Assembly (NCBI GenBank): GCA_017634975.1
Contig: JAGBMJ010000137.1
Coordinates: 1 to 50,047, forward strand
Reading direction: 5' to 3'
Length of the DNA stretch: 50,047 nt
DNA from: Lachnospiraceae bacterium
GTDB lineage: Bacteria > Bacillota > Clostridia > Lachnospirales > Lachnospiraceae
The notes beneath the pieces were generated by a model. It worked only from the letters and a program-made list of their open reading frames with translations. It did not search any database and was not told the origin of the DNA. Below are positions 3,971-46,068 of the stretch, piece after piece. Position 1 is the stretch's first letter; the number at the start of each line of letters is the position of its first letter. The translations under genes were made by a program, and so were the position numbers.

Positions 3971-5014
3971 TCAGGTTTTCAGTTTTGCCCTCAGTTCTTC
4001 GATCCGTGCATTCAGCCTGGCGATCTCCGTATCGCATTCCTCCGCAAATACCCGGATCAGCTCCCGGCGCTCCGCTACCCACGCCTCATCCGCTAGCATA
4101 TCCTTCATATTGTAGGGGAAGCTGTCCTTGATCTGATGGATCTGATACTCCAGGTCCTTTTTCTGCAGGAGCAGGCGGTCCCGCAACTCCTTTAGCTTTG
4201 CGATATCCTCTGCCGTATCCTTATACTTCTCGGCGATATCCGTATCGTCTATGGTCTCCGCGATCTCCCGTAGCCGTTCCAGATCACCCTTTTCGTATGC
4301 GTCCATCGCATCCTGTAGCAGTACCTTTTCCTGCTCGGTGATGTCCGGGTTCATATCCGGATGCAGCTTCTTTACGATCTTGCGGTACAGCCGCTTCATC
4401 TCTTCTTCCGGCGTCTCCTGCCTAGGTTCTTCTTTAGGTTCTTTTGCCTCCTCCTTTGCGCGCTGTTCGCTCTCGGCATTATCAGATCGTTCCCCGGTCT
4501 TTCCCGTATCCGTTAGTCCCGTCTCTTCCTCTGTGTTCTCGGCCTCCCCGGTCGTCTTTAGAGAGACTGCCGACATTTTCTGTGCCGCCTCCCGCCTTCG
4601 CTGTGCTTCCTGCCGGTTCTTTTCGTCCTGCTTCGCACGCTCTCTGGCATATTCGGCGTTCTTTTTGATATCTTCCGCCTTCTTTTTTAAATCTTCCTCA
4701 TACTTTTTGAAGTCTTTTTCGGTCTGTCTCCGGGCCTCTTCGTACGATGCCGCTTCCTGTCGGTTGAGAGCCGCCTGGATATAGGCAATCACACGCTTGA
4801 GCTTCTCGATCTCCGTCAGCTTGAGCGTCGCTTCAAACTCCGCATTGCCCACCTTTTCGTTATAATCTGCCAGGATCTCCCTGCAGATATGCCCTTCCAG
4901 GTCGTCTTTTTCTGCCGTCAGATCCGCGATGTCCTGCTTCAGCTGACGGATCTGCGCGATCAGGGAGTCGTATTCGGATATGGTTTGGATTGGGATTACT
5001 TCGTATGATTTCAT
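3971..5014 (-). CDS. Coiled-coil protein with a J domain
   Basis: A 347-residue cytosolic protein. The N-terminal 130 residues are a charged coiled coil, followed by a Glu/Lys-rich linker. A J-domain core follows near residue 210: EMKRLYRKIVKKLHPDMNPD, with the invariant HPD that stimulates DnaK ATPase. A second coiled coil forms the C-terminus. It lacks the Gly/Phe and zinc regions of DnaJ, so it is a specialised DnaK partner. The start at 5012-5014 is chosen because GAGGTG lies just upstream; an upstream in-frame start would overlap the Lrp gene. It precedes the HIRAN and AAA genes, which suggests a joint protein-remodelling role (inference). Confidence 0.75.
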   Translation of the reverse strand: MKSYEVIPIQTISEYDSLIAQIRQLKQDIADLTAEKDDLEGHICREILADYNEKVGNAEFEATLKLTEIEKLKRVIAYIQAALNRQEAASYEEARRQTEKDFKKYEEDLKKKAEDIKKNAEYARERAKQDEKNRQEAQRRREAAQKMSAVSLKTTGEAENTEEETGLTDTGKTGERSDNAESEQRAKEEAKEPKEEPRQETPEEEMKRLYRKIVKKLHPDMNPDITEQEKVLLQDAMDAYEKGDLERLREIAETIDDTDIAEKYKDTAEDIAKLKELRDRLLLQKKDLEYQIHQIKDSFPYNMKDMLADEAWVAERRELIRVFAEECDTEIARLNARIEELRAKLKT

Positions 5015-5021
5015 AGACACC

Positions 5022-5474
5022 TCATAATGGATCAGGCATGATCCCGGCGTAGACATCCTTGACCACTTGCTTGACAGCCTGCGTTGACATCTGTATGCAA
5101 TCCGGCCCGCATTTCTTCTCTATGATCCGGATCAGATAGTTGATATCTTCCAGCGACCTGGCTACCGCTACGAAATGGATATGGCACTCGCCGGTCGTTA
5201 TGAAGATCTGCCGGATATAGGTCGTTCTGGTGGTGATATACTTCAGCACCTTATCAAACTTCTCCGGCTTGGTATAGAGATCCATAAACATGGTGATCTC
5301 GTCCTCACGATAGATACAAGTATTGTAGCCGCGGATGATGCCATCCTCTTCCAGCCTCCGGACCCGTTTCATGGTTGCCACACGGCTGATCCCCAGAGCG
5401 TCCCCCAATTCCTGATAGCTGATCCGGGCATTACCTTTCATAAGATCCAGGATCTGTTCGTCTTTCTCGTCCAT
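5022..5474 (-). CDS. Lrp/AsnC-family transcription regulator
   Basis: At 150 residues this has the normal length of the family. An N-terminal winged helix-turn-helix (DEQILDLMKGNARISYQELG, then ISRVATMKRVRRLEEDGIIRGY) is followed by a RAM-like ligand/oligomer domain (about 60-145). It is a close paralogue of the N-terminal half of the fusion protein at 7,729-8,571: most HTH positions are identical, and the ends IIEKKCGPDCIQMS and LIQKKCGGDILRMS correspond. The gene sits 7 bases upstream of the J-domain gene and about 40 bases after a small gene, so it may regulate this operon. The effector cannot be deduced. Confidence 0.85.
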   Translation of the reverse strand: MDEKDEQILDLMKGNARISYQELGDALGISRVATMKRVRRLEEDGIIRGYNTCIYREDEITMFMDLYTKPEKFDKVLKYITTRTTYIRQIFITTGECHIHFVAVARSLEDINYLIRIIEKKCGPDCIQMSTQAVKQVVKDVYAGIMPDPL

Positions 5475-5513
5475 ACGCTTCTCCCTGCTTTCGTGATTCT
5501 CAACTCCGCTTTT

Positions 5514-5732
5514 TTAGTCTGCCAGCCGCCCCATCTTCTTCCCGGTCTTTGCAAAGATCAGTGCATCATCATAGGAACAATTATGCTCTCTGGCATAAAT
5601 GATAAGCGCATGATCCAGATACGGATACTTCCTGGCCTCTACATATCCACGATTAGCTTCCAGCTCAGCCCTGTGATACAGTGCCCGCAATCTTTCGTCA
5701 CTTACTTCAAACAATACATTTAGAATCCCCAT
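5514..5732 (-). CDS. Small protein of unknown function
   Basis: 72 residues, predicted all-helical and soluble, starting MGILNVLFEVSDERLRALYH and ending FAKTGKKMGRLAD. A GGGGGAG ribosome binding site lies 6-8 bases before the ATG. It sits between the EF-hand gene and the Lrp gene in the same orientation with short gaps. I do not recognise a family. The AREHNCSYDDALIFA segment is typical of a folded helix rather than a shadow frame. Confidence 0.6.
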   Translation of the reverse strand: MGILNVLFEVSDERLRALYHRAELEANRGYVEARKYPYLDHALIIYAREHNCSYDDALIFAKTGKKMGRLAD

Positions 5733-5756
5733 ACCGTTTCTCCCCCGCTGCCTGCA

Positions 5757-6014
5757 CTAAAAATCATCATCTCCATCGAAGTCGTCATCATCTTCATCGA
5801 AATCATCATCATCGTTGAAGTCATCATCGTCGTCATCAAAGGAGTCTTCGTCGTCAATGATATCATCGTCCTCATCCTCGTCGTCATCGTCCGAATACCC
5901 ACCGCTGTTCTGACGGATCATTTCTTCCTCAAACTCATCCCTCTGCCAGCGCTCAAAGAAATCCAGCTCACCATCGTGGTTCCGATCAAATAATTCATCC
6001 GTGTGTCTCAACAT
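5757..6014 (-). CDS. EF-hand protein with poly-acidic tail
   Basis: 85 residues. Residues 10-21, DRNHDGELDFFE, are a textbook EF-hand calcium loop: D1, N3, D5, G6, hydrophobic 8, D9 and E12. From about residue 42 the protein is nearly all Asp/Glu with regularly placed Phe (DDDDF-type units). No signal peptide is present, so it is probably cytosolic and may bind or buffer divalent cations. The start has GAGGAGG 7 bases upstream. The coding DNA for the tail is a run of GAT/GAC-type triplets that is prone to slippage, so tail length may vary between strains. Confidence 0.7.
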   Translation of the reverse strand: MLRHTDELFDRNHDGELDFFERWQRDEFEEEMIRQNSGGYSDDDDEDEDDDIIDDEDSFDDDDDDFNDDDDFDEDDDDFDGDDDF

Positions 6015-6060
6015 ATGCCTGCCTCCTCACATGTGCTGTGTTATAGCGCCTTATCTACAC

Positions 6061-6249
6061 CTATACAGCATTTTTCTCTACAGCATATTCCACATTACTC
6101 GTCAAATGAAACCCATTACAGTAACCGCACCAATAATAGTCCAGCTTTTTCCCCCTTTCCTGTTCGAACTGCCTCCGGTAATAATTCGCCGCGTGTTCGT
6201 CCTGATATCTTTTCTTCCTACCGCATTGCCACCATACTAATCTTGTCAT
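6061..6249 (-). CDS. Small Cys-containing protein of unknown function
   Basis: 62 basic residues with one N-terminal Cys (WWQCGRKKRY) and a C-terminal WCGYCNGFHLTS. The three cysteines and the nearby His could bind zinc as a small ribbon. Comparable short proteins occur in phages and mobile elements. A GAGGG site precedes the ATG by about 9 bases. It lies in the same minus-strand series as the EF-hand gene. Function unknown. Confidence 0.6.
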   Translation of the reverse strand: MTRLVWWQCGRKKRYQDEHAANYYRRQFEQERGKKLDYYWCGYCNGFHLTSNVEYAVEKNAV

Positions 6250-6314
6250 ATCCGGTTCCCTCCTATTGGTTTGTTGGTTACCGTCTCCCCCTCTATGGCC
6301 TCATGCTATATCGA

Positions 6315-6791
6315 TCAATCCCAATCGTCCGGCTCGTCTTCCAGATAATCCCAGGCATCGTCCTCGTTTTCGAAGTCGCCGCGGTTATCATAGTAGAAAC
6401 CATCCACATCGTAGTCATCTACATCGCTATAGTCGGATCTGCTGCCGGATGAGCCGCTCGTCCGAGAACTCGTAGTCCGGGACGAGTTTGTGGTTCGTGA
6501 TGCCGGTCTCGGAGTAGGTGTCGGCGTGCTTCTTCTCGTAGGTTCGGCAGTATAGCTGTAGGAACTCCTTTCCCTTTCTGCCCTGGTAGGAAGCGGGTGA
6601 TCTTTAATATACTCAGCGTCAAAGTACTGTCTGTGGAATTCGCAATACTGGCTTCCCGCCGCCCTATGCACATTGCAATTTTGCTTTATACATGGATCGG
6701 ATGTAGTTACATTGGAAAACGCCATCCACAGAGCGAAAAATATGCCTGCACCTAAAACACATCCAAGAGTCTCTGCACCTTTATTCGTCAT
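6315..6791 (-). CDS. Membrane-anchored Ser/Thr-rich protein with acidic tail
   Basis: 158 residues from the ATG at 6789-6791, chosen because AAAGGAGG lies 6 bases upstream (an in-frame upstream ATG has none). A transmembrane segment at about 7-27 is followed by a Cys/His cluster (CIKQNCNVHRAAGSQYCEFH) that could hold zinc. A low-complexity Ser/Thr/Arg/Pro stretch comes next, and an Asp/Glu/Tyr-rich end. It resembles small membrane proteins of unknown role common in Lachnospiraceae genomes. Confidence 0.6.
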   Translation of the reverse strand: MTNKGAETLGCVLGAGIFFALWMAFSNVTTSDPCIKQNCNVHRAAGSQYCEFHRQYFDAEYIKDHPLPTRAERERSSYSYTAEPTRRSTPTPTPRPASRTTNSSRTTSSRTSGSSGSRSDYSDVDDYDVDGFYYDNRGDFENEDDAWDYLEDEPDDWD

Positions 6792-6935
6792 ATGCTGCCT
6801 CCTTTCGTACGTTGTCCTCCCCCTCACCTTTATGTTATCTTTTCTATCTCTTCGTCTATCTCCTATTATCCATATTTTCAGTCCAATATTTATCGCTTTT
6901 CGAGACGGATACCTCTCTCAGGATCAATTTAGGTA

Positions 6936-6968
6936 TAAAAAAACATTACAAAGTTTCCTTTATAATGT
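6936..6968 (-). terminator. Rho-independent terminator after the alpha-CTD-like gene
   Basis: On the minus strand ACATTATAAAG, loop GAAA and CTTTGTAATGT form an 11-bp stem (one G-T pair) followed by seven T. It lies 76 bases after the stop of the gene at 7,045-7,437. Confidence 0.8.
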
Positions 6969-7044
6969 CTTACCAAGAGTATCCGGATCCCGGATAGCAG
7001 CTGGCTGACATTGATTTTCGTTTTTAAGCGTAAACCGTTTTATT

Positions 7045-7437
7045 TTAAGAATTCATTATCACTATTTCCTTTACATATTGGCCTTTTTCGTGTTCCGGGA
7101 GGATCTTGAACTGGTAGCACATCAGCATCAGGAGCATTTCTTCCGCTGTTTTTCTTCCCAGGCTCCGGATCTTCAGAAGCTGTTGCTTACTGCTGGCATC
7201 CTCCTTTGCTGCTATAGCCCTCACCAGGGATCCGATCGTGGTATACCCGGATCGTAGCAGGCAGTTATTTGCCCGTACACTCATATCCAAAACGGATATA
7301 CTCTCTTCCATCTGTTCTTTTGTTAGTGAAATGTTGAAATAGATCATCTTTCTGTGCCTGGCAAGAAACTCCAGCATTGTGCACTCCGACATATAGGGAT
7401 CCATTTCGTTTAGAATCTGTTTGATACGTTCATTCAT
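7045..7437 (-). CDS. Stand-alone RNA polymerase alpha-CTD-like protein
   Basis: 130 residues. The region LDMSVRANNCLLRSGYTTIG followed by LLKIRSLGRKTAEEMLLML matches the alpha-subunit C-terminal domain of RNA polymerase (family pattern: L-x-LSVRxxNCLxxAGIxTIxxL, then LLxIRNLGxKSxxEI). The alpha N-terminal assembly domain is absent, so it cannot be a core subunit. In the family this domain binds UP-element DNA and activators. The start at 7435-7437 has GGAGG 8 bases upstream. A 130-residue homologue is the C-terminal half of the neighbouring fusion protein (both begin M-D/N-ERI and have EMDPYM). It has its own promoter at 7,587-7,615. Confidence 0.8.
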   Translation of the reverse strand: MNERIKQILNEMDPYMSECTMLEFLARHRKMIYFNISLTKEQMEESISVLDMSVRANNCLLRSGYTTIGSLVRAIAAKEDASSKQQLLKIRSLGRKTAEEMLLMLMCYQFKILPEHEKGQYVKEIVIMNS

Positions 7438-7519
7438 GACCGACACCTCCATTTGCTGCTCCGGTGATCTTCTCTACGCAGTTTTCGGATCAATACATCC
7501 ACTACGTGTAAGATGTTCA

Positions 7520-7549
7520 CCGTTGTTAACCGTTGTTAACCGTTGTCTA
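7520..7549 (-). repeat. Three 10-bp direct repeats in the leader of the alpha-CTD-like gene
   Basis: The plus strand reads CCGTTGTTAA twice, then CCGTTGTCTA, with an exact 10-bp period. The repeats lie in the transcribed leader between promoter and start codon. One helical turn of spacing suggests side-by-side protein binding. The binder is unknown. Confidence 0.6.
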
Positions 7550-7556
7550 CTCTTAC

Positions 7557-7659
7557 CGTTTCAGCGTCGACTCTGAACTTAAGATCAGTATAATCAAGGT
7601 GTCATATTATTTCAAGTGTTGCAGTTACGATTCGTAACTCTGGATTACGAATCGTAACT
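7557..7659 (-). promoter_or_regulatory. Promoter and operators of the alpha-CTD-like gene
   Basis: On the minus strand TTGAAA (7610-7615), 17 bases and TATACT (7587-7592) form a strong promoter. Two palindromes lie upstream: AGTTACGATTCGTAACT at 7623-7639 and ATTACGAATCGTAACT at 7644-7659. Their centres are 21 bp apart (two turns), near -51 and -72. A further near-palindrome, TTCAGNGTCGACNCTGAA, overlaps the start of the transcript (7557-7579). The same elements occur before the Lrp-alpha-CTD gene at 8,589-8,670. Confidence 0.7.
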
Positions 7660-7728
7660 ATTGGTAGTTTTATTGTCGTTCTCCGCGTGCCGGCGATCCT
7701 ACCGTGTGATCACATTGTATCATTGCTG

Positions 7729-8571
7729 TCAAGAGGTGGTCGTATTAAGCTCCACAACCTCACGCACAAACTTGCCTTTTTCACTCTCCGGCAGAATCCG
7801 GAATTGATAATACATGATCATCAGCATGATCTCATCAGCGGTTTTCTGCCCCAGATTACGCAGATGCAGAAGTTTATCCCGGCTCCGCTCCTCGCCCTTA
7901 TCCTCGATTGCATCGACCAGGCTTCCTATGGTATGGAATCCGGCCCGCCGAAGACTATTATTTGCCCTGACGCCCAGATCAAGTGCCGCTATATCCTCTG
8001 CCTTTTGCTCTTTTCTGAATGCCACACTAAACCAGATGGTCGATTCACGCATTTGCGCAAATTCCCTCATAGTCCCCACAGGCATATAGGGATCCATTTC
8101 GCTGAGTAGTTTCAAGATTCTTTCGTCCATAATCGCCGTCTCCTTGTTCTTGTCTCTACAGACTTCAGCTCCCATGTACGCGGACATTCGGAGAATATCC
8201 CCTCCGCATTTCTTTTGGATCAAGTCTGCCAGATACTTTAGTTTCTCCACAGAATCGGGAGCAGTAATTATATGGATACGGTTTTTGCCGGCAATACGGA
8301 AGATCTGCCGGATGCCGGGGATTCCTGCAGCAATATACTCCGCCACCTTGTCATATTTCTCCGGTACGGTGTCGATGTCAATAAACATCGTGCTCTCATC
8401 ACCGCGACAAATATCCGTCTTATACCCCCGGATGACACCAGCCTCTTCCATCTTGCGGACTCTCTTCATGGCCGCAACACGGCTGATTCCAACACGGTCC
8501 CCTAGATCTTGAAAACTGATCCTGGCATCATCCTTCATGAAATTGAGAATCTGCTCGTCCGTTCTATCCAA
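7729..8571 (-). CDS. Lrp/AsnC regulator fused to an RNA polymerase alpha-CTD-like domain
   Basis: 280 residues. Residues 1-145 are a full Lrp/AsnC protein: HTH DEQILNFMKDDARISFQDLG, ISRVAAMKRVRKMEEAGVIRGY, then a RAM-like domain. Residues 148-280 are a complete copy of the stand-alone alpha-CTD-like protein: MDERIL, EMDPYM, LDLGVRANNSLRRAGFHTIG and LLHLRNLGQKTADEIML. The start is a TTG at 8569-8571 with AGGAG 6-7 bases upstream. The joint still carries AAGGAG (8140-8145) 9 bases before an ATG (8128-8130), so the alpha-CTD half may also be made alone. I know of no standard family with this domain order. It probably links DNA binding directly to polymerase recruitment, or to polymerase decoying. 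Confidence 0.85.
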   Translation of the reverse strand: MDRTDEQILNFMKDDARISFQDLGDRVGISRVAAMKRVRKMEEAGVIRGYKTDICRGDESTMFIDIDTVPEKYDKVAEYIAAGIPGIRQIFRIAGKNRIHIITAPDSVEKLKYLADLIQKKCGGDILRMSAYMGAEVCRDKNKETAIMDERILKLLSEMDPYMPVGTMREFAQMRESTIWFSVAFRKEQKAEDIAALDLGVRANNSLRRAGFHTIGSLVDAIEDKGEERSRDKLLHLRNLGQKTADEIMLMIMYYQFRILPESEKGKFVREVVELNTTTS

Positions 8572-8588
8572 TCAGCTCTCCTTTTCTA

Positions 8589-8670
8589 CGTTTCAGCGTC
8601 GACTCCGAACTATGATTTCAGTATAAGCGTGCTGTTTTAGGAATGCAAGATGCCCATAACGAATCATAAT
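8589..8670 (-). promoter_or_regulatory. Promoter and operators of the Lrp-alpha-CTD gene
   Basis: On the minus strand TTGCAT (8643-8648), 17 bases and TATACT (8620-8625). A 23-bp element at 8589-8611, identical except for one base to 7557-7579, lies at the transcript start and is nearly palindromic around GTCGAC. A palindromic half of the upstream operator (CGAATC core, about 8655-8670) is again near -50. The match to the promoter at 7,587 in sequence and spacing implies common control, probably by one or both Lrp proteins. Confidence 0.65.
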
Positions 8671-8723
8671 TTTAGTTCGGGGCCCCTAACGACAAGAACC
8701 GGTCATCTTATGTACTGATGGTT

Positions 8724-9017
8724 TTAGTCCCTATCAATATCCATAATAGAATACCGTTCATAAAACTCTTCCAGAGTAATGACCTGCCCTTTTGCAGTAG
8801 CTCCCGCAGCACAGGTTACATTTCCCATCATCCGATATGTTTTTCCGGTCATATCTACTATTATAGGAAGTACTGATTCGATTATAACCTCATCACCTCT
8901 GATCTCTTCTGTATCTATCGAGTATCCTTTGCTCTTCAGTCTTTCGAGCAGAGATTCTCTTTTTCTTGTTTCCTTCTCTCTGATATATATCTCAACATTA
9001 TTATTCATCTGCCTCAT
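8724..9017 (-). CDS. Protein of unknown function downstream of the serpin
   Basis: 97 residues with no family I recognise. A charged helical first half (REKETRKRESLLERLKSKGY) is followed by beta-rich VIIESVLPIIVDMTGKTYRMMG and ends EEFYERYSIMDIDRD. The gene start overlaps the end of the serpin gene by about 17 bases in another frame, so translation is probably coupled. Two nearby ATGs (9015-9017 or 9006-9008) are possible. Confidence 0.6.
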   Translation of the reverse strand: MRQMNNNVEIYIREKETRKRESLLERLKSKGYSIDTEEIRGDEVIIESVLPIIVDMTGKTYRMMGNVTCAAGATAKGQVITLEEFYERYSIMDIDRD

Positions 9018-10338
9018 CTTCCTTTCCCATCCTTCGTTTTATATGAAACTCCAAAAACTTCAAACCGTCCAAGTTCTCATTCTTATAATATAACTCTGCT
9101 TCTTTCTTTATCCTCTGTACCTTTACAGAAGTTCCAGCTTCACTTATAAGTTCTTGAATCCTGGCATATTGAGCCTCTATCTCAAATGAATCCATACCTG
9201 CTTCATTTGAGCTGACATTCAGATCAAAGCCTTCGCCTTCCTGCTCCCCATCTTCAAGATGATTCACCGTTCCGACAAAAACAGGGAGTCCGGTATCATT
9301 ATGAACAATAGCAAACAAAAACGGCCTATCCAGTTCAACAACCTTATAATCGATTTTAGGTGGCGCACCATAACATGCAATAAAACCAGACACAGCAACT
9401 GCTTTAGTTCCATTTCGATCCACCTGGATATATGCCTTATGGATGAGTTTTTCCACCTTAAGCCTTTCATTGATCAGAGTTCCAAAATCTGCCTCTCCGG
9501 AAAACGCGCGGCTAATCCCAAGTTTTCGACAGAAATCGTTCAGTTCTTCTCCAAATTCGAACTTGTACTCCGGTATCGTTGTAATAACCTTCTCATGGCT
9601 CCTGCTCTTATATAACCTAGAAAGATCCAAGTCTTTTATAGCTTTCTTCAGATATGTTATTCCCTCTTTCTTCGGCAAGAGCGCCATATAAGAATAACCT
9701 TCTTCCCGATACGGCTTTACAAATCCTGTAAATAGGGGATCTTCGATGTACTGCCACTCTGTACTGCTCATCATCATTACTTCGCTATAACTGCCATCCG
9801 AGTTGTAGAACTCACCAAATCTGAGATCTTCGGCTTCATACTTTTCAGCCCATCTTGCATCAAACGCGACGGCATTCATAAGGCAGGCTATCAGCGATTT
9901 CCAAGAATCATCCGCTATCCGCGTTATCATCCCCCTAGTATTCTCGCTGACCCAACCATTTACTGCATCAACCATATCTTTTGCCGAAAACAATCTTCCA
10001 CCAAAGGTCCTCTTCAGTCGTTCTTCATACAAGGGAACAACCTTATCCCTGAGATCTTCTCTGATACACACAGCATTTGAGGCCACCAAAGCCCCACTTT
10101 CCATCAACTCTTTTTGGATGTCACCCAACCAAGCAATGATATCCTGCAGATCCGACTCTCCTCCTAATGCACTGACTATTTCTTCTTTCGTCTCCCCACT
10201 GGCAGCGTCCGCAAGCATAGCCAAAAGGTTCATTACTGAGAGTGGTGATATCACAATATTCTTATTCACATCCTCGATCAAGAAATCAAGCAGCTGCTTC
10301 GTAAGGGCGTTGTTTATTTTTATATTCTTCTCTTCCAT
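9001..10338 (-). CDS. Serpin-family protein without signal peptide
   Basis: 445 residues. The serpin fold is clear from NIVISPLSVMNLLAMLADAA (helix B region), LMNAVAFDARW (the LxNAxYFKxxW pattern), a hinge QVDRNGTKAVAVSGF, and PFLFAIVHNDTGLPVFVGTV near residue 345 (PFLFxIxxxxTGxxLFxG). The hinge has GT and small residues at the right places, so inhibition by loop insertion is possible. The reactive loop appears to run through FIACYGAPPK. About 80 extra residues after the serpin core are charged and helical. There is no signal peptide, so a cytosolic protease target is expected; most secreted gut serpins have one. The gene overlaps the 97-residue gene and lies about 37 bases after the ADP-ribosylglycohydrolase gene. 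Confidence 0.85.
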   Translation of the reverse strand: MEEKNIKINNALTKQLLDFLIEDVNKNIVISPLSVMNLLAMLADAASGETKEEIVSALGGESDLQDIIAWLGDIQKELMESGALVASNAVCIREDLRDKVVPLYEERLKRTFGGRLFSAKDMVDAVNGWVSENTRGMITRIADDSWKSLIACLMNAVAFDARWAEKYEAEDLRFGEFYNSDGSYSEVMMMSSTEWQYIEDPLFTGFVKPYREEGYSYMALLPKKEGITYLKKAIKDLDLSRLYKSRSHEKVITTIPEYKFEFGEELNDFCRKLGISRAFSGEADFGTLINERLKVEKLIHKAYIQVDRNGTKAVAVSGFIACYGAPPKIDYKVVELDRPFLFAIVHNDTGLPVFVGTVNHLEDGEQEGEGFDLNVSSNEAGMDSFEIEAQYARIQELISEAGTSVKVQRIKKEAELYYKNENLDGLKFLEFHIKRRMGKEDEADE

Positions 10339-37822: not shown

Positions 37823-39496
37823 TTACAACTCCACCACCTGATCCGCGTACTTATCCAGATACCGCCTGTGGCTGACATATAAAACCGTCGGATGCTCCGA
37901 TCTTGCTATGGCATCCAGTATCTTCATCTCCGTCTTTTCATCCAGCGCGGAGGTCGCCTCATCCAGAATCAGAATAGCGGACTTCTTAAGCAATGCTCTC
38001 GCTATCGAGATACGCTGTGCCTGTCCTTCCGAAATACCCGTAGCCTTTTCGCCGATCTGAGTATCAATACCATCCGGCAGGCTTTCCACAAATTCCAGCG
38101 CATCAGCAATTCTCAGCACCTCTTTCATCTCATCAGCCGTCGCGTCACTCTTCCCCATCCGGAGATTATCGGCGATGGTACCAAACATCAGGGTGTTCCC
38201 CTGCGGAACATAGCTGATCAGTTTTCTGGTGTTTACATCACATTTCTTCCGGATCCCGTTCTCGGAATAAAATGACAGTTCTCCTTCCGATGAAGGCAGG
38301 AATCCCATAATCGCTCTTAAAAGTGTGGTTTTACCGGCACCGGACTTTCCGGCCATCATCACCATCTGTCCCGGTTTAATATCAAAGGATACATTCTGCA
38401 CAACAGCCTCGGCCTTGTATCCCACAGTAACCGAATCCGCCAATATACCTAAATAAGCGCATCCCTCATTGCCATCCGTGAAAGCCCTGATTTCTTCCGG
38501 ATCCGCCTGTTCTTCCTCCAGCTCACTGACCTCTATGATCCTTCCAGCGGAAGCCAGCACACCCACGATCTGTGGGATTTGGTTTGCCAGAGAATAGATC
38601 GGTCCCTGGATCTGTCCTACCAGACTAAGAAAAGCGGTCATCACGCCAAAGGTGATCGCCCCGTCACTGACCATCAGTGCTCCGACCACAAATGCGATCA
38701 TATGAGCTCCGGTAAAGGTGATACCGATCACACCGGTTCCAATCACCTTCCACTTGTTCTTCTGCCTGACCAGTTTCAGTCTCTTATCCTGGATCTCCTG
38801 TAATCTTCTGATACTGTTTTCTTCCTGTCCGAAAAGCTGAACCAGTGTAGCCTTGCTAAGTCTCTCCTGCAGGAAAATACGATAATCCGCCTCTGTCTGC
38901 TGATACTCCTTCTGTATCTTATTCATACCCCTGCTGATAAGCTTCCCTGCTACTGCCCCGATGGGGGCAATGATGATAAGTGCAACAGCAAGAGCAGGCG
39001 CATAATTCCATAAGAGACAGAATGCAAGGATCAGCCGGACGATCAACGCTCCCCCTGAAATAATCAGCCTGCTCACACCGGAAGTGATCTGCTCCACATC
39101 ACTGGTGATCCTGCTGAGCAGCTCTTCACTATGATACTCTGTCCTGCTGATCCAGGGCAGACGCAGAAACCGCTCAAACAGGCTGCTCCGCATCTGGCAG
39201 GCGTATTTTTCTGTGATCGTTGCTTCCAGCAGCGATTCCAGCACCCCTCCAACGATAGAAAAAAGCTGTAGCCCTACCATGATGATCACCAGGGTGCGAA
39301 GTACCACCTGATCTCCCGCCTTATCCACGATCGACTTATTGACAAGAGATACCAGCACGGAAGCTACAGCTACACTTGTGTTAAGAAGCAGCAGACCAAG
39401 CAGGGATTTTTTGCTTTTTGCAGTTAGTTTGGCAATCCATCTCAAATACTTCCTCTGATTCTTGCCGTCTTTCAGAAAACCTATATATTTATCCAT
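37823..39496 (-). CDS. ABC transporter (membrane domain plus ATPase), peptide exporter
   Basis: 557 residues. Six membrane helices in the first 310 residues, then an ATPase: Walker A GKSGAGKTTLLRAI, Q-loop ISYVPQG, signature ISEGQAQRISIARALL (a variant of LSGGQ), Walker B AILILDEATSALD and switch His in VSHRR. The layout is that of the D protein of lasso and other RiPP clusters; no N-terminal peptidase is fused. Last gene of the peptide operon, 4 bases after the nucleotidyltransferase gene, so it probably exports the modified peptide. Confidence 0.88.
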   Translation of the reverse strand: MDKYIGFLKDGKNQRKYLRWIAKLTAKSKKSLLGLLLLNTSVAVASVLVSLVNKSIVDKAGDQVVLRTLVIIMVGLQLFSIVGGVLESLLEATITEKYACQMRSSLFERFLRLPWISRTEYHSEELLSRITSDVEQITSGVSRLIISGGALIVRLILAFCLLWNYAPALAVALIIIAPIGAVAGKLISRGMNKIQKEYQQTEADYRIFLQERLSKATLVQLFGQEENSIRRLQEIQDKRLKLVRQKNKWKVIGTGVIGITFTGAHMIAFVVGALMVSDGAITFGVMTAFLSLVGQIQGPIYSLANQIPQIVGVLASAGRIIEVSELEEEQADPEEIRAFTDGNEGCAYLGILADSVTVGYKAEAVVQNVSFDIKPGQMVMMAGKSGAGKTTLLRAIMGFLPSSEGELSFYSENGIRKKCDVNTRKLISYVPQGNTLMFGTIADNLRMGKSDATADEMKEVLRIADALEFVESLPDGIDTQIGEKATGISEGQAQRISIARALLKKSAILILDEATSALDEKTEMKILDAIARSEHPTVLYVSHRRYLDKYADQVVEL

Positions 39497-39500
39497 ATTA

Positions 39501-40592
39501 CTACTTCACTTGCTTAAGTATTTTCAACTCCCTGATCATTTTGCCGTTTTTAAGACCGCGCAATACCCGATAGAAAGGCAGTAATGGCAGTAGGATCTTG
39601 TGCTTATAAAAGAAGGGAAAATATGCCGCCATCGCCTGATATCTCTTGTTCTTTTTGCTAACTGGCACAAAGAAACGGTTCAGCATATACCAAATCTTGC
39701 CCCCTCCGTATTCTTTCATCCGGTTTTCCACGCGATGATCCATCGTACCATACACCCCTGACGACAGAACATATTCAAGCATTTCCTTATCAGCATCCGT
39801 CAGTTCCTTACCGGAGAACAGGTGCTGTGCCAGCAAGCGGTTGGCAGCCTCAAATTCCGCGATCCCCAGCTTTTCCGTTTCCGTCGCCACATAGTCCATA
39901 TCAAGGGACTCTTTTTGCAGATATACATACACATCAAGAATAGAACGTAGTCCCGTTCCCCCCATGGAATAGTGCTTATATTCATGGGCGAGCATATAAA
40001 TGTAAAAGTCCTCCGGGCTGAAATGCTTCTCATATCCATCACCCAGCAATCTTTTTTCCACATCTGTATAGTATTTATACATTTTCTCGTCGTGACCGGA
40101 ACCAAACAGAGAAGTATGCATCTCAAAATTGCTCACAGGTTCCTTGTGATACACATCATGATTGCTGGCACCAAAATGTTCCACACTAAATCCCAGCTTT
40201 TCCATGATGCTTTTCACGTCATCTGCCCGTTTGGCATCAAAGAGAATATCATGGTCAGACATCTGTCGCATGCCATACACAGGATACAGATGCTGCAGAA
40301 GAGTTCCCTTAAGGGGCATATGCCAGATACCTGCCGCGTCCAGTTCGGCAAATACCTCTGACATTTCCATATCCATCTGCGCATTCTTCAGTGCGGAATG
40401 CTTCTTTGCTTTAACAAAGCGTTCTTCCTTTACCCCAGCAGTTTCCAATGCATGAGCGACCGTAGCTGTAAGATAATGCCTGTTCGCCTGTTCATACAGC
40501 TCGTCCATATCCATACCGGCGATCCGCTCCGGATCTGCTTTCACACCATTTACTGCGCACGATACGAGATAGATCAAATCCTCCGCTTCCAT
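39501..40592 (-). CDS. Nucleotidyltransferase-fold tailoring enzyme
   Basis: 363 residues of the PF14907-like nucleotidyltransferase family: MPLKGTLLQHLYPVYGMRQM followed by SDHDILFDAKRADDVKSIM, the usual G-x-LL ... R-x-x-D-x-D region, with DHD in place of DID. Such genes occur in paeninodin-type lasso clusters beside a kinase, where they are thought to modify the peptide. The second Asp of the motif is kept. Acts in the cytosol. Confidence 0.8.
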   Translation of the reverse strand: MEAEDLIYLVSCAVNGVKADPERIAGMDMDELYEQANRHYLTATVAHALETAGVKEERFVKAKKHSALKNAQMDMEMSEVFAELDAAGIWHMPLKGTLLQHLYPVYGMRQMSDHDILFDAKRADDVKSIMEKLGFSVEHFGASNHDVYHKEPVSNFEMHTSLFGSGHDEKMYKYYTDVEKRLLGDGYEKHFSPEDFYIYMLAHEYKHYSMGGTGLRSILDVYVYLQKESLDMDYVATETEKLGIAEFEAANRLLAQHLFSGKELTDADKEMLEYVLSSGVYGTMDHRVENRMKEYGGGKIWYMLNRFFVPVSKKNKRYQAMAAYFPFFYKHKILLPLLPFYRVLRGLKNGKMIRELKILKQVK

Positions 40593-40638
40593 GTAAGTCT
40601 CACTTCCTTGTTCCTAATACTAAATCAAGGTTCAAAGA

Positions 40639-41130
40639 TTACCCATGAACCTTGACTTTTCTAATTATTCTTTCAACTTTGTCCACAACACGGTGCGGTA
40701 AGATCAAAAGCCGCCTAAAACGCCACAGCGCGCACCAGCGTGCGGCACGGCGGCGCCACTTCAGGTCATCACAATCAATTGTCCGCTTTCCGCGCCGGAT
40801 CAGCTTCGCCTTGCCGAGAATATTTGAGCGAGGGAACCACCCGTCCGGTTTACGATTTCCGTCGCCAAAGGTCTGCACTCTGTCACCGTCCAGCTTCCAC
40901 ACCCGGTGCAGGCAGTATTCTCCGCCCTTATAATGCCCCGGAAAAAGCACGATATCACCGACCTTGATGTTCTCCGGCATTATGCTTACCAGCATCACCT
41001 GATCTCTGTTCACGCGGATCAGCGGAAACATGCTACTCCCTACCACAGTGAACCAGATAGGCGGTGCTTCCGCACCGCCTTCCCGCATAGCCATCCACTG
41101 CTCAATGGACAGGGAGACACGCTGCGTCAT
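40639..41130 (-). CDS. S26-type signal-peptidase-like protein
   Basis: 163 residues. WFTVVGSSMFPLIRVNRDQV holds the Ser nucleophile (GSSMFP). CLHRVW and FGDGNRKPDG supply His and Asp as in archaeal/ER-type S26B peptidases rather than the Ser-Lys pair of bacterial LepB. No clear transmembrane helix; the C-terminus is Arg-rich. ATGA overlap with the PqqD gene. The best candidate for removing the leader of the precursor peptide, since no lasso-type B2 protease is present. Confidence 0.78.
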   Translation of the reverse strand: MTQRVSLSIEQWMAMREGGAEAPPIWFTVVGSSMFPLIRVNRDQVMLVSIMPENIKVGDIVLFPGHYKGGEYCLHRVWKLDGDRVQTFGDGNRKPDGWFPRSNILGKAKLIRRGKRTIDCDDLKWRRRAARWCALWRFRRLLILPHRVVDKVERIIRKVKVHG

Positions 41131-41393
41131 GCTTCAGCCACGCCCGCCTCGATCAGCGAGGCAATGGTCTTCTGAACGTCGGCGCTGGCGGTGTCGAGGG
41201 ACACGTCATATTCCTGTGTCAGCGCCTGGGCGGTTTCCTCCGGGGTGCTGCCCTTCTGCAATTTCTCGAAGATGAACGCGCCGGTGTCGTTGAGCATCAG
41301 TGAGCCGTTAAACTCTTTCACGTTCTTGCCTGTAGGCATCACCAAGTTCATGCCCGGCACTTTTCTCAAAATGAATCCATTCTTGATCTTCAT
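41127..41393 (-). CDS. PqqD-family peptide-recognition protein
   Basis: 88 residues: FILRKVPGMNLVMPTG, LMLNDTGAFIFEKLQKGSTP and EYDVSLDTASADVQKTIASL fit PqqD, the RRE domain that binds leader peptides of RiPPs and hands them to modifying enzymes. Follows the precursor gene and overlaps the S26 peptidase gene. Confidence 0.85.
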   Translation of the reverse strand: MKIKNGFILRKVPGMNLVMPTGKNVKEFNGSLMLNDTGAFIFEKLQKGSTPEETAQALTQEYDVSLDTASADVQKTIASLIEAGVAEA

Positions 41394-41448
41394 ATCGTTT
41401 GCTCCTTGCCTATATCTTTAAGCCCGGTATAGGGCGATTTTGCCGAAG

Positions 41449-41479
41449 GTCAGCCGAGATTCTGCGAATCCCGGCTGAC
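41449..41479 (-). promoter_or_regulatory. Hairpin between precursor and PqqD genes
   Basis: GTCAGCCG-A-GATTC / GAATC-C-CGGCTGAC, 8 plus 5 pairs with one mismatch and a 3-base loop. No T run. It could protect the short precursor mRNA or weaken read-through, so the precursor is made in excess over the enzymes. Confidence 0.55.
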
Positions 41480-41539
41480 AAGGGTGGCTTCTTGAGCCTT
41501 CACCATGTGGATACAGCAGATGTTCCGTATCTGGCCATA

Positions 41540-41668
41540 TTATTGGATGGTGCAAGTCAAGGCAGAATCGTTTACATATTCGCATCCGCTTGCTGTGATT
41601 CGATCACTGGCGTCGAACTCCACCTTGGTGACCTCGGGGGTTTCATAGACCTTCTTTTCGTTCTCCAT
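41540..41668 (-). CDS. RiPP precursor peptide
   Basis: 42 residues from the ATG at 41666-41668, with AAAGGAGG about 8 bases upstream. The leader-like part has YETPEVTKVEF, the Y-x-x-P and hydrophobic spacing that PqqD-type RREs bind in lasso leaders, followed by ITASG. The C-terminal part GCEYVNDSALTCTIQ has two Cys and an Asp at position 7. It lies between the radical SAM and PqqD genes. The core could be Gly28-Gln42 (cut after Ser27, small residues at -1 and -3), with thioether, lasso-like or other modification. Confidence 0.75.
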   Translation of the reverse strand: MENEKKVYETPEVTKVEFDASDRITASGCEYVNDSALTCTIQ

Positions 41669-41743
41669 TTTGGTTTCCTCCTTTCTGTTTGATGATATGT
41701 TTACCGCCACGGGCGGGAAACAACGATTCAAGGGGGAGACAGA

Positions 41744-42847
41744 CTATTTTGCCCGATATTCTTCGCCAATGTCTGCCTGCCGTCTCATCCACGCACAGGT
41801 TTCACTATTACACAAATGCCTTGCAGCAAAACTCTTGTGCTGTGTCGGACAGTAGTGACACTTATCCTTGTGAGAACATCTGTGGCACTCCTCCGGTACT
41901 TCATAGTCCTTCACGCCATGGTTGACTTCTCTCCACGCAGCCCCAAAACCAATATTCTTCACATCGGCACAGATCACATCCCGCGGGAAACCAAGACAGG
42001 GCTCCATAGTACCGTCCCAGTTTACAGCGAAGGTGGTTCTTCCACCATTACAAGAGAGCCCGCGCTGCATGATACGTGATTCATCGTCCGGAATATCCCC
42101 CATGAACTCCGCCTCTTCCTCCGTCTGACTTCTGGGCTTGCGCGGAAACATATCCCGGTATTTTCGGTGAATGCGGGCATTTTCCTCCAGGCTCAAGCCG
42201 AAATCTTCCATACTGCGCCCGGTGTCTTTGTTTGCCTCAAACAATGCAACATTTACACTGACATCCTCTGCGCCGAGAGTACCGGCATATTCCATGATCC
42301 GATCCACCCAAGGCAGCATATAGGCGCTTGGGGTAATCTTCAGTTGAACGTGCAGCCCTGCCGCTATGGCGGCGCGGACATTCGTTGTTACTGTTTCAAA
42401 TACATCATGCCCGGTGACAGCCGTATAGGATTCCCCGTCACAGCCGTAGAGGGACACATCGATTACATAGGGTGGATATTCGGTGAACAGGTCGATCATG
42501 CCCTTGTTCAGCAATATTCCGTTGGTTTTGACACGGACAGACATCCCCTGATCGATCAGATACATATAGATTCTCTTAAAGTCCGGGTGTGTCATGGCCT
42601 CGCCGCCGGTGAGCAGGGCGATCATCATGCCGTTCTCTATTGCCTGCCCCATAAGATCGATCCACCGATCTCCATCAAGCATACGCTCCTTTACCGTCGG
42701 ATCGGAAAGATGCACATAGCACATCTTGCAGTCCAGATTGCACAGCGGCGTCAGTTCAAAGCAGCCGCTGATCGGCGTGTCATTCTCTCTGGCATTCTGC
42801 ATCGCCATTTGCAGGAATTGGTTGTAGTTTATCGTGTTCATTGTCAT
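41744..42847 (-). CDS. Radical SAM/SPASM peptide maturase
   Basis: 367 residues. TPLCNLDCKMCYVHL has the C-x3-C-x2-C iron-sulphur motif, GGEAMTHPDF is the SAM-binding GGE, and the C-terminal SPASM domain has CNGGRTTFAV, EPCLGFP and CHRCSHKDKCHYC with further Cys. It probably modifies the Cys-containing precursor encoded just downstream (75-base gap). The gene starts directly after the kinase stop. Cys-to-alpha or Cys-to-beta/gamma thioethers and other bonds are all possible. Confidence 0.88.
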   Translation of the reverse strand: MTMNTINYNQFLQMAMQNARENDTPISGCFELTPLCNLDCKMCYVHLSDPTVKERMLDGDRWIDLMGQAIENGMMIALLTGGEAMTHPDFKRIYMYLIDQGMSVRVKTNGILLNKGMIDLFTEYPPYVIDVSLYGCDGESYTAVTGHDVFETVTTNVRAAIAAGLHVQLKITPSAYMLPWVDRIMEYAGTLGAEDVSVNVALFEANKDTGRSMEDFGLSLEENARIHRKYRDMFPRKPRSQTEEEAEFMGDIPDDESRIMQRGLSCNGGRTTFAVNWDGTMEPCLGFPRDVICADVKNIGFGAAWREVNHGVKDYEVPEECHRCSHKDKCHYCPTQHKSFAARHLCNSETCAWMRRQADIGEEYRAK

Positions 42848-43759
42848 TTACCCCTTGCAGATCGTTTCATATGTCAGCCGTACTGCTGCTTCATCGGGCA
42901 GACAGCGCAAGTGGTACATAGACAGTTCCTGAGCCAGAGTTCCCATAAGGGCAGTTGCACCATTCATAGCCATATCGTCCCAAACAGGCATCATAGCTTG
43001 TTTGAGCATTACGGTCATCGCCTCAACAGGGTTCATAGCAAAGATGCGGTTTTCCATCGCCTGTTCCAGCCATACCAGCGCTCTCACAGGAACATTAGTC
43101 TGTCGATGTATGCCGTCTTTACCGTCCCAGGGCATTCCGAAACCTATCCATTTTCCGTCTATCTTACGAAGTCCCGGTCTATCACCGATGATGAAATCCG
43201 CATCAAGGTATTTCTCCCACAGCTTCGCCTGGGTAGACTTTCCCATACCGGAAGGACCGAGAAAGATCACGCCAAAGCCGTCCTTTTCTACCAGCGAAGC
43301 ATGAAGAGGAATCCCGTCCCACATGACCATACCCGCCTCGCAAGCGGCTCGTATGGAGTATGACAGAGGAATGGACGGTTGTATGTGCAATACATGACCG
43401 TTTCTTTCGACGTCAAAAAATCTTTCTGTCACCCAAACAGTCATTTCCTCATAATTCTTGCTTGCAAGCACAACATTTCTCGCGCCTTCCGCAAGACGAA
43501 GCTCGTCCGCAAGGGTGTTCACAAACGCCCAGCCGTTGCCAGTATCATGAATTGTGAAGTATTCCGTCTCATATGCCACAGGGCAGTTCAGCGCCCATGT
43601 GCGCTTTTCCTCAAGTTCCCCGGCATCACCATAATGCAGGGTGAAGGTATGGGTATAGGGCATCTCGTTCCTGAACGCAGAGAGATACTCCATTGATTCA
43701 TGTTCACTTATTTCATCGTCCGTAAGCAGACGATAGTTTGCAAAATAATATTCACGCAT
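42848..43759 (-). CDS. HPr-kinase-like peptide kinase
   Basis: 303 residues. Walker A GPSGMGKSTQAKLW after PLHASLVEKDGFGVIFL, with the DADFIIGDRPGLRKIDGKW segment of HPr kinase/PEPCK-like enzymes. Its length and the N-terminal half fit the lasso-cluster kinase (K) type, which phosphorylates the peptide tail in paeninodin clusters. First gene of the operon. GAGGAG lies 12 bases before the ATG, rather far. Confidence 0.8.
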   Translation of the reverse strand: MREYYFANYRLLTDDEISEHESMEYLSAFRNEMPYTHTFTLHYGDAGELEEKRTWALNCPVAYETEYFTIHDTGNGWAFVNTLADELRLAEGARNVVLASKNYEEMTVWVTERFFDVERNGHVLHIQPSIPLSYSIRAACEAGMVMWDGIPLHASLVEKDGFGVIFLGPSGMGKSTQAKLWEKYLDADFIIGDRPGLRKIDGKWIGFGMPWDGKDGIHRQTNVPVRALVWLEQAMENRIFAMNPVEAMTVMLKQAMMPVWDDMAMNGATALMGTLAQELSMYHLRCLPDEAAVRLTYETICKG

Positions 43760-44439: not shown

Positions 44440-46068
44440 TTATAAACTCGGATCATTTCTCTTTTTTGTGATACTTCTTGACGGCTGATGCCTCTCATTT
44501 TCAAGCATTCTTTCGAGATCACGCTTGTTGTAACTGAGCACTTCCATCTTCGCAAGATCGACTACCGCATTTGAGATGGCTTTCTCCGTCTTCTGTGATT
44601 TTTCTTCCAGCCCGGTAAGCTCTTCCTTCCATTTCTTCGGTACGATCTTTTTATCCGGTTCCTTGATCATATCTTTAAGGATGTTTTTATACATCTTGAA
44701 AGTGTTCAGCTCGGTCTGATGCTGCCGCTTATATTCCTCTGCTTTGCTCTTTTTGAAAAACCCAAGTGGCTTACCCTTTTTATCTTCCGCGCCTTTCAAC
44801 TTCCAATACTCTACATTGAACTTATGATATGGCTCATATTTCTCCTCGCAGAAGTCGATCAGTCCCTGAAGATAATCCATTCGGGTACTCGTAACACCAT
44901 CGCTCTTTTCAAGCCTGTCATATTCAGCCTGCAATGCTTTCCTGTCAGCCTGCATTTCATCAAAAGTAGTCCATCCCTTGCTCTGCACATAGGCTTCCAT
45001 TTTATCCTTGTCCTGCAAAGCTGCACGGTCAGACACTTCACCGATATATTTCCCCTTAACAACCGGAAGCGTAAGACGGTTATTATTACGCTCACACATC
45101 CTCCGGATCATATCAATGATCTCGCTCTTGAATGCCTTAACAACAGCAACCGGAATAGCCTTAACCGCTTCAAGCTCTTCCTTGGCTTTTTCAACCGCCA
45201 TACGGGCTGCATTGATGATAGCATTTTTCTTTATGATGTCACGGTTGATATTTCCACGGATAGTCTGTATCCCGGCACGCTCCATTGCGCTCGACTTTTC
45301 TCCGAGATGTATCTGCGGTATGATATCAAGCCCCTGTTCCTTGAATGATCTATGCTCCCAAAAGTCCTGCGTCATGCCCAGCTCGGCATTGGCAGAATTG
45401 ATAGCGTCCGTCAGTTCTTTTCTCCATAGTTTGCTGTACTCCTGATTATCCCAGTCATTGGTCTTTATTGTGGTACATTTCCACTGCTTTCTGTTCTGCT
45501 TATCGACTTTCTGCTGTCCGGTCTTTTTATCAATGACTGGAATACGCTCGCCGTTCTCGTCCGTAAGATATATTTTCTTCTGCTTCGGCATCCAATGCCC
45601 CTGCTCATCTATACTCCGCAGGGTTAGCATGATATGGGCATGAAGATTACGCTGTCCCTTATCATTTTCAGAGTCATGAATGGCAAACTGAACGCACATT
45701 CCCTTTGATACAAAAAGCCTTTCGCATAGCATCCTAACGAACATGATCGCAAACTGATAAGTCCAGAGATTAGGAAGTTCGATTCTCCAAGTCCTCGCAA
45801 GCTGAGCATCACTCTTTTTCTCAAACATCTCGACAGAATTCCACAGCTTAGCCGGATCGTTATATTCTGCCGGGGCATTTTCGGGAAGAAGCACCTCCGA
45901 ATGTACCAAGTCTTCATGACCCTTCGGGTAGTATGTCTTGCCGTCATATTCGGAATACATCTTCTCACGACAGATATACCCTGACTGCTCGACTGCCGAA
46001 TGACCGCCGGTACACTTCGCAGTTCTGCCGCATATCTTCATGCGGGTACTTATGTTTTTAACTGCCAT
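44440..46068 (-). CDS. MobA/MobL-family relaxase
   Basis: 542 residues. HSAVEQSGYICREKM, LHAHIMLTLRSID (metal-binding His pair) and MYSEYDGKTYYPKGHEDLVH are MobA/MobL (MobQ) hallmarks. The C-terminal half is coiled-coil. It nicks the element oriT to allow mobilization by another conjugative system. GAGGTG precedes the ATG, and the oriT-like repeat lies about 60 bases upstream. Corresponds in position to tnpZ of Tn4451. Confidence 0.85.
   Translation of the reverse strand: MAVKNISTRMKICGRTAKCTGGHSAVEQSGYICREKMYSEYDGKTYYPKGHEDLVHSEVLLPENAPAEYNDPAKLWNSVEMFEKKSDAQLARTWRIELPNLWTYQFAIMFVRMLCERLFVSKGMCVQFAIHDSENDKGQRNLHAHIMLTLRSIDEQGHWMPKQKKIYLTDENGERIPVIDKKTGQQKVDKQNRKQWKCTTIKTNDWDNQEYSKLWRKELTDAINSANAELGMTQDFWEHRSFKEQGLDIIPQIHLGEKSSAMERAGIQTIRGNINRDIIKKNAIINAARMAVEKAKEELEAVKAIPVAVVKAFKSEIIDMIRRMCERNNNRLTLPVVKGKYIGEVSDRAALQDKDKMEAYVQSKGWTTFDEMQADRKALQAEYDRLEKSDGVTSTRMDYLQGLIDFCEEKYEPYHKFNVEYWKLKGAEDKKGKPLGFFKKSKAEEYKRQHQTELNTFKMYKNILKDMIKEPDKKIVPKKWKEELTGLEEKSQKTEKAISNAVVDLAKMEVLSYNKRDLERMLENERHQPSRSITKKRNDPSL

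Follow-up and report, generated by a model that had tools for sequence, protein, structure and literature searches.

A seven-gene operon in a 50,047-nucleotide stretch of DNA from a Lachnospiraceae bacterium (assembly GCA_017634975.1, contig JAGBMJ010000137.1; hereafter the window) appears to encode a radical S-adenosylmethionine (SAM) branch of the linear polyphosphorylated peptide (LPP)-type systems, which produce phosphopeptides belonging to the ribosomally synthesized and post-translationally modified peptides (RiPPs) (Popov et al., Nat Commun, May 2026; PMC13381572). Based on sequence comparisons, we assign a probability of roughly two in three to this reading, which comprises delivery by a RiPP recognition element (RRE), crosslinking of Cys residues, phosphorylation, cleavage by an S26 peptidase, and export. 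All seven genes lie on the minus strand within 37823..43759, in agreement with the preliminary description of this DNA, and are listed here in the order of transcription (aa, amino acids; ORF, open reading frame; ER, endoplasmic reticulum; ABC, ATP-binding cassette):

42848..43759, minus strand: HPrK-like peptide kinase, 303 aa (match to TIGR04249 ScmC; HPr kinase structures)
41744..42847, minus strand: radical SAM/SPASM enzyme, 367 aa (PF04055; SPASM Cys; profile match to SkfB)
41540..41668, minus strand: precursor, 42 aa (ORF behind a GGAGG-type ribosome site)
41449..41479, minus strand: 14-bp stem-loop between the precursor and RRE genes (folding against shuffles)
41127..41393, minus strand: discrete RRE of the PqqD family, lasso B1/LppB-like, 88 aa (PF05402)
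40639..41130, minus strand: S26 archaeal/ER-type signal-peptidase-like leader peptidase, 163 aa (TIGR02228; catalytic residues)
39501..40592, minus strand: PF14907 nucleotidyltransferase-like protein, 363 aa (PF14907)
37823..39496, minus strand: MsbA-like ABC exporter, 557 aa (MsbA model; Pfam matches)

The kinase and radical SAM genes adjoin with zero gap, and the RRE and S26 genes share 4 bases. On the basis of these genes, their catalytic residues, the leader and core pattern of the precursors, the gene fusions seen in relatives, and the association of paired Cys with the radical SAM gene, all of which are evident in the sequences, we infer the individual chemical steps and their order. The RRE would bind the 42-aa precursor through its YxxPxV leader, and the SPASM radical SAM enzyme would crosslink the paired Cys of the core, most likely via one or more thioethers to variable residues, to yield a small macrocycle. 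The HPrK-like kinase would phosphorylate a core Ser, the best candidate being the near-invariant Ser at position -2 relative to the first Cys, and the PF14907 protein, where present, would decorate the resulting phosphate, a sugar being a likelier addition than a nucleotide. Cleavage of the leader within a conserved [IM]-[TA]-A-S block would be carried out by the S26 peptidase, and export would fall to the ABC protein.

A single scan of genome contigs with the radical SAM protein recovered 79 loci, 30 of them close (at least 390 bits), which come from Bacillota, Bacteroidota (18 loci, with L017 belonging to an isolate, Prevotella ruminicola KHT3), and, going by the names of their records alone, Actinomycetota, Synergistota, and Chloroflexota. 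Many of the 30 close loci are ended by contig ends; within what is in view, an RRE is encoded in 29, an S26 peptidase in 25, an HPrK-like kinase in 24, a PF14907 protein in nine, and an ABC exporter in five, while the nine loci with at least 3.5 kb on each side all have the kinase, RRE, and S26 peptidase, along with the PF14907 protein in seven and the exporter in four. The Bacteroidota loci, many likewise cut short, encode the RRE in 18/18, the S26 peptidase in 16, the kinase in 14, and an ABC protein in one (a partial-length match in L017), and where in view their gene order is radical SAM, precursor, RRE, S26, kinase. These counts point to the kinase, RRE, S26 peptidase, and radical SAM enzyme as the constant core of the system. 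The gene-neighborhood search with the radical SAM query, which the preliminary description had suggested, thus finds the gene set recurring in relatives, and for this reason we regard the operon as more than a chance assemblage. Among the distant relatives, 19 ORFs fuse the HPrK and RRE domains and two (L063, L070) fuse HPrK with the radical SAM enzyme, so that an LPP-like kinase, RRE, and S26 chassis seems to be coupled to radical chemistry, with the fusions tying the kinase to both the RRE and the radical SAM enzyme. The branch is nonetheless rare: among 295 genomes from the order of the window the host was the sole match at an E-value of 1e-60, and a plasmid collection held no relative of the radical SAM protein at 1e-15. 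Individual loci carry extra tailoring genes, viz., a glycosyltransferase (L006), a protein-kinase-like protein (L019), an arylsulfotransferase (L029), and an APH-like protein (L011).

The precursor of the window, which the preliminary description did not specify, is composed of a leader, MENEKKVYETPEVTKVEFDASDRITA(S), followed by a variable core, (S)GCEYVNDSALTCTIQ. Together with those from 29 of the 30 close loci (none is in view at L011, and some Prevotella precursors were taken from an internal Met), it forms a set of 30 precursors, 28 of them distinct. The leaders of the latter share a YxxPxV motif (Tyr at position 1 in 27/28, Pro at 4 in 28/28, Val at 6 in 27/28), a V-E-F-D stretch at 9-12 (each residue in at least 27/28), and Ile or Met at 17 (28/28). 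The cores comprise 12-22 residues (median 18) counted from a conserved Ser (27/28), which stands two residues ahead of the first-Cys position, with Cys at position 3 in 25/28 and at least two Cys in 27/28; the last Cys lies 1-7 residues before the C-terminus, and Lys or Arg occurs in just four of the 28. Outside the paired Cys the cores are hypervariable. The radical SAM gene of the window and that of its relative L005 are identical at 872/900 nucleotides, and the downstream sequence at 99/100; between these two loci, the leader has seven changed codons, all synonymous, and the core 11, of which eight are nonsynonymous. Similarly, L019 and L033 are identical over the leader (78/78 nucleotides) and diverge in the core (36/48), as do L018 and L034 (63/63 and 29/63, respectively). 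The changes in these three pairs argue strongly for translation of the ORF, for constraint on the leader, and for a diversifying pressure on the core from which the Cys are exempt. The fast divergence of the core in turn suggests a role in recognition or antagonism and raises the question of the target that drives it while the surrounding machinery stays nearly identical. In three Bacteroidota loci (L022:9131-9259, L024:2049-2177, and L025:1648-1776), which encode two distinct precursors, Trp (SGW) takes the place of the first core Cys, and one or two Cys follow later; such precursors may reveal a different crosslink. As to the cleavage site, three registers in the I-[TA]-A-S block fit and none does so for all rows (L010 has Pro and L032 Val). 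Phosphorylation of a C-terminal Ser, as in paeninodin, was rejected, since the precursors have no common C-terminal Ser.

The link between the radical SAM gene and paired Cys emerges from a separately drawn set of loci. A profile of the S26 peptidase, built from radical SAM loci only, matched 127 of 391 genomes of the class, including the host, from which 59 loci of other genomes and a second locus of the host were fetched, mostly by best E-value first and not at random. These 60 loci include 52 with an RRE and nine with a radical SAM gene nearby; the eight without an RRE were left out of the Cys comparison. A Cys-blind scan found a precursor in 8/9 radical SAM-positive loci and 21/43 RRE-positive, radical SAM-negative ones, and precursors with at least two Cys occur in 8/8 of the former versus 2/21 of the latter (Fisher p=1e-5, with related loci treated as independent). 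At the level of ORFs, 20/22 precursors from the radical SAM-negative loci have no Cys at all. Of the two exceptions, L150 begins close to the end of a contig, at the point expected for a radical SAM gene, and its S26 protein nests with those of radical SAM-positive loci, and L168 was counted through a spurious-looking second ORF. On the positive side, a two-Cys precursor is present in L122 and was overlooked by the automatic scan, and L127 has an additional, doubtful Cys-free ORF. In the original 79 loci, at least two Cys were found in 22/23 close and 22/26 distant loci with a candidate, a ribosome site having been required in the distant set only. The second locus of the host (L118, contig C146, 2996-5646) is an LPP-type locus without a radical SAM gene, in which the kinase and RRE are accompanied by a 550-aa fusion of the S26 peptidase and nucleotidyltransferase; it adjoins a large 822-aa ORF, and the automatic scan found no precursor there. 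In another locus (L137) the S26 peptidase is instead fused to the ABC protein.

When 100 S26 proteins are placed in a tree, the presence of the radical SAM gene requires four changes as against a mean of 32.5 for shuffled labels (0/500 shuffles as low), where L005-L083, which the radical SAM query had recovered, were labeled by locus and the clustering is inflated by close relatives; the window falls within a group of 45 radical SAM-positive rows (support 97/92). This bears on whether the operon might be an ordinary LPP system that produces a linear phosphopeptide, with the radical SAM gene being an incidental neighbor. Five of the seven genes do match the published LPP core set, namely the S26 peptidase, RRE, HPrK, NTP transferase, and MsbA-like exporter (PMC13381572). 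However, the radical SAM gene sits between those for the kinase and the precursor, is kept in close relatives despite changed gene order, and is fused to HPrK in some distant ones, which, together with the S26 tree, renders an incidental presence very improbable.

The radical SAM protein itself matches PF04055 (54.6 bits) and the SPASM domain (20.0 bits, just below the cut-off of 21.5). Its CxxxCxxC motif (C36, C40, C43) and the eight Cys of the SPASM region (266, 284, 321, 324, 330, 333, 346, 351) are invariant in 19/19 rows (the window and 18 relatives), and in a broader 42-row set all of these remain so except C346. The protein would not accommodate an N-terminal RRE, and its AlphaFold model has a mean pLDDT (predicted local distance difference test) score of 90.2. 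In comparisons with known structures, here and below made as sequence-profile searches of the PDB, the best match is SkfB (6efn; E 6e-30), which we take to be a Cys-thioether maturase; the AlbA, PapB, and SkfB models are also among its NCBIfam matches, though far under their cut-offs. Given the association with paired Cys and the kinship to SkfB, we favor crosslinking of the core by this enzyme, with a thioether as the likeliest bond and a disulfide combined with other radical chemistry as the main rival.

That rival has the radical SAM enzyme acting elsewhere than on Cys, by a carbon-carbon crosslink, epimerization, or decarboxylation, and the two Cys forming a disulfide after export. Several observations that weigh against the thioether pathway bear on it. 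SPASM radical SAM enzymes are chemically diverse; the next PDB matches of the profile include cytosylglucuronate decarboxylase, sulfatase-maturating enzyme, MoaA, and PqqE, and the top NCBIfam matches, all below cut-off, are the heme b synthase (AhbD) and MoaA models. No residue between the Cys is conserved as an acceptor across the 28 cores, and the core Cys could form a disulfide instead. The pairing of Cys also has gaps: the core of the close relative L022 has a single Cys, the distant loci L038, L048, and L063 offer only one-Cys candidates and L083 only a doubtful ORF with none, and L123 (10734-10883) and L130 (11189-11398) carry an extra one-Cys candidate near the RRE or nucleotidyltransferase gene beside their paired-Cys precursors, so that a single locus might yield two types of peptide. 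Beyond the crosslink, the PF14907 protein is seen in 0/18 Bacteroidota loci, many of these loci being cut short, and the LPP study did not identify a final product of its system (PMC13381572). Nevertheless, we consider chemistry away from Cys unlikely: the radical SAM gene and paired-Cys precursors go together in the separately drawn set of loci, the best structural match is SkfB, and the other core residues are hypervariable, so that the Cys are the main constant target.

The other enzymes of the proposed thioether pathway appear intact. The kinase matches TIGR04249 (ScmC; 42.6 bits, cut-off 125) and, weakly, HPr(Ser) kinase models, and its profile recovers the HPr kinase/phosphatase structures 1ko7 and 1jb1. 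It has a Walker A motif (GPSGMGKST, 168-176), with H153, the Walker A K174, and D193 each conserved in 64/64 aligned rows, and its AlphaFold model has a mean pLDDT of 92.9. The S26 protein matches the archaeal-type signal peptidase I model TIGR02228 (43.4 bits, cut-off 51.85) and PF10502 (19.5 bits, cut-off 22.9), and its profile has ER-type SEC11 subunits as best structures; Ser33, His75, and Asp90 are present in 47/47 rows, with Asp96 as an alternative third catalytic residue, and no N-terminal membrane span was seen by eye. Length and score filters were applied to both the 64-row and 47-row sets. The preliminary description had recognized a SPASM radical SAM enzyme and an S26-type peptidase in the operon, and domain matches and conserved residues bear out both. 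The PF14907 protein is clearly matched by its model (151.5 bits); the exporter matches an MsbA-like model at 254 bits, which is under the cut-off of that model, and its Pfam matches include no peptidase domain.

The RRE matches PF05402 (55.4 bits), and a profile built on 18 such proteins, of which radical SAM loci contributed 14 and loci without that gene four, recovers the lasso B1 proteins TfuB1 (6.3e-9) and TbiB1 (5.1e-8) as the top two structures, followed by LppB (9x8z; E 2.4e-6) and a paeninodin-type RRE (9x90). N35 is invariant and D72 conserved in at least 90% of the sequences, with a spacing of 37 as for N33/D70 of LppB (PMC13381572). The B1-like RRE and YxxP leader, along with a Thr at -2 and an Asp at ring position 8 when the core of the window is counted from Ser27, are what could be expected of a lasso peptide threaded by a cyclase and B2 protease encoded elsewhere, with the radical SAM enzyme and kinase serving just for decoration; moreover, one distant relative (L070) has an adjoining lasso-cyclase-like gene. 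The preliminary description had noted that the lasso cyclase and transglutaminase-like protease are absent, and this holds for the host genome, in which the protease family PF13471 has no match; the genomes of 29 relatives yield two weak matches and none above cut-off. A remote lasso cyclase dedicated to this precursor, the finding that it had named as speaking against a novel class, was not found either: the PF00733 matches of the host are on other contigs, where by eye their contexts are pyrG/gltBD-like genes, a glycosyltransferase locus, and a guaA-like ORF. Acidic residues for ring closure are likewise sparse, with Asp or Glu at ring positions 7-9 in 8/28 cores and in 9/28 in an alternative register. 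We therefore reject a lasso peptide with a remote cyclase, to which we give almost no credence. As for L070, its region 4790-9664 encodes the lasso-cyclase-like protein (NF033535, 177 bits against a cut-off of 525) along with a leader-like ORF that contains Trp. Both lie directly upstream of the genes for the HPrK-radical SAM fusion, for a precursor with a YxxP leader, and for an RRE, which makes this a possible lasso/radical SAM neighbor pair.

The preliminary description had further envisaged a RiPP that is modified by a radical SAM enzyme and both phosphorylated and nucleotidylated. The RiPP operon and its conserved gene set stand, whereas nucleotidylation is not the best reading, because the nucleotidyltransferase of pseudomycoidin transfers hexoses onto the phosphate according to a review, deletion of lppN left the detectable products of the LPP system unchanged (PMC13381572), and the gene is seen in none of the Bacteroidota loci, many of which are truncated. 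By analogy with pseudomycoidin, the PF14907 protein is possibly a hexose transferase acting on the phosphate.

Two further features concern the setting of the operon. The 150-nucleotide region around the stem-loop following the precursor gene folds with a z-score of -3.18 (3/200 shuffles equally stable), and the 150 nucleotides after the precursor contain a predicted stem run of at least 10 in 25/30 copies, a count made without a shuffle control; the stem-loop is possibly an element controlling stoichiometry or processing at the mRNA level. Upstream of the operon the window encodes a MobA/MobL relaxase (44440-46068), and another lies near the operon copy of L005 (316-1917). The relaxases in both genomes, together with the near-identity of the operons of L019 and L033, whose records bear different phylum labels, hint that the operon resides on a mobilizable element.

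Among known systems, the SynChlorMet cassette (TIGR04248-TIGR04251) offers a comparable combination of an HPrK-like ScmC, which we take to be a relative of HPrK, a PqqD-like ScmD, and the radical SAM/SPASM proteins ScmE and ScmF; membership was rejected, since the scores (42.6, 17, 49.3, and 58.3 against cut-offs of 125, 100, 400, and 400) are all far below. The sactipeptide and ranthipeptide systems (SkfB, AlbA, PapB) share a SPASM radical SAM enzyme with a full set of auxiliary Cys and Cys-bearing precursors, but in those the RRE is fused to the enzyme, whereas here it is discrete, a kinase, S26 peptidase, and nucleotidyltransferase are added, and the exporter is devoid of a peptidase domain. 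With the paeninodin/pseudomycoidin-type lasso clusters the operon has in common the HPrK kinase, nucleotidyltransferase, PqqD-type B1 protein, and ABC exporter; it differs in having neither a macrolactam cyclase nor a B2 protease, and in a Tyr where the paeninodin leader motif has Trp (PMC13381572). The preliminary description was hence right that these components are shared with paeninodin-type clusters, but they are not specific to them, being equally part of the LPP core (PMC13381572).

The closest counterpart is the LPP system, for which leader binding by LppB and cleavage by LppS were demonstrated, and in which a single Ser close to the new N-terminus is phosphorylated by the kinase (PMC13381572); the roles proposed here for the RRE and the S26 peptidase follow this precedent. 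Beyond the five shared genes, the likeness extends to a SipW-type S26 peptidase with Ser/His(/Asp), the catalytic residues being present here, to a discrete LppB-related RRE with a YxxPxV leader, even if lasso B1 structures score better, and to a core without lasso enzymes. On the other side stand the radical SAM/SPASM gene, the short core with paired Cys, the leader tail (VEFDxxxRI[TA]AS as opposed to the published LxHQxIxFETxxS), and the presence of the branch in Bacteroidota (e.g., P. ruminicola KHT3), while LPPs are considered by their authors to be restricted to Bacillota (PMC13381572). The precursor matches the YxxPxV portion of the LPP consensus YxxPxVLxHQxIxFETxxS and not the remainder, and as the linear nature of the product is also doubtful, we do not file the operon as an LPP system. 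In the main text of that paper, supplements aside, the terms 'radical SAM', 'rSAM', 'SPASM', 'thioether', 'sactipeptide', and 'Bacteroid' are absent, and 'adenosyl' occurs solely in a microcin C reference (PMC13381572). As to whether this exact set was already described as a class, which the preliminary description had left to be checked, no paper pairing an LPP-type set with a radical SAM enzyme was found among the literature matches listed, yet once the radical SAM enzyme is left aside, the set corresponds to the published LPP system (PMC13381572). Hence, the S26 protein is the leader peptidase of the LPP family and not an oddity of this operon. We see an even chance that these loci constitute a distinct RiPP class, "radical-SAM LPPs", spread across phyla in the gut and rumen, with macrocyclic, Cys-crosslinked, (poly)phosphorylated, and sugar- or otherwise decorated products, SipW-like release, and fast-diversifying cores. 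In that event, different rings would be encoded by operons whose radical SAM genes are 97-98% identical, and the precursors would provide a natural set of short cyclic core candidates behind a fixed leader. Thus, the combination of kinase, RRE, S26 peptidase, nucleotidyltransferase, and exporter is known from the LPP systems (PMC13381572), and the novelty lies in the radical SAM branch.

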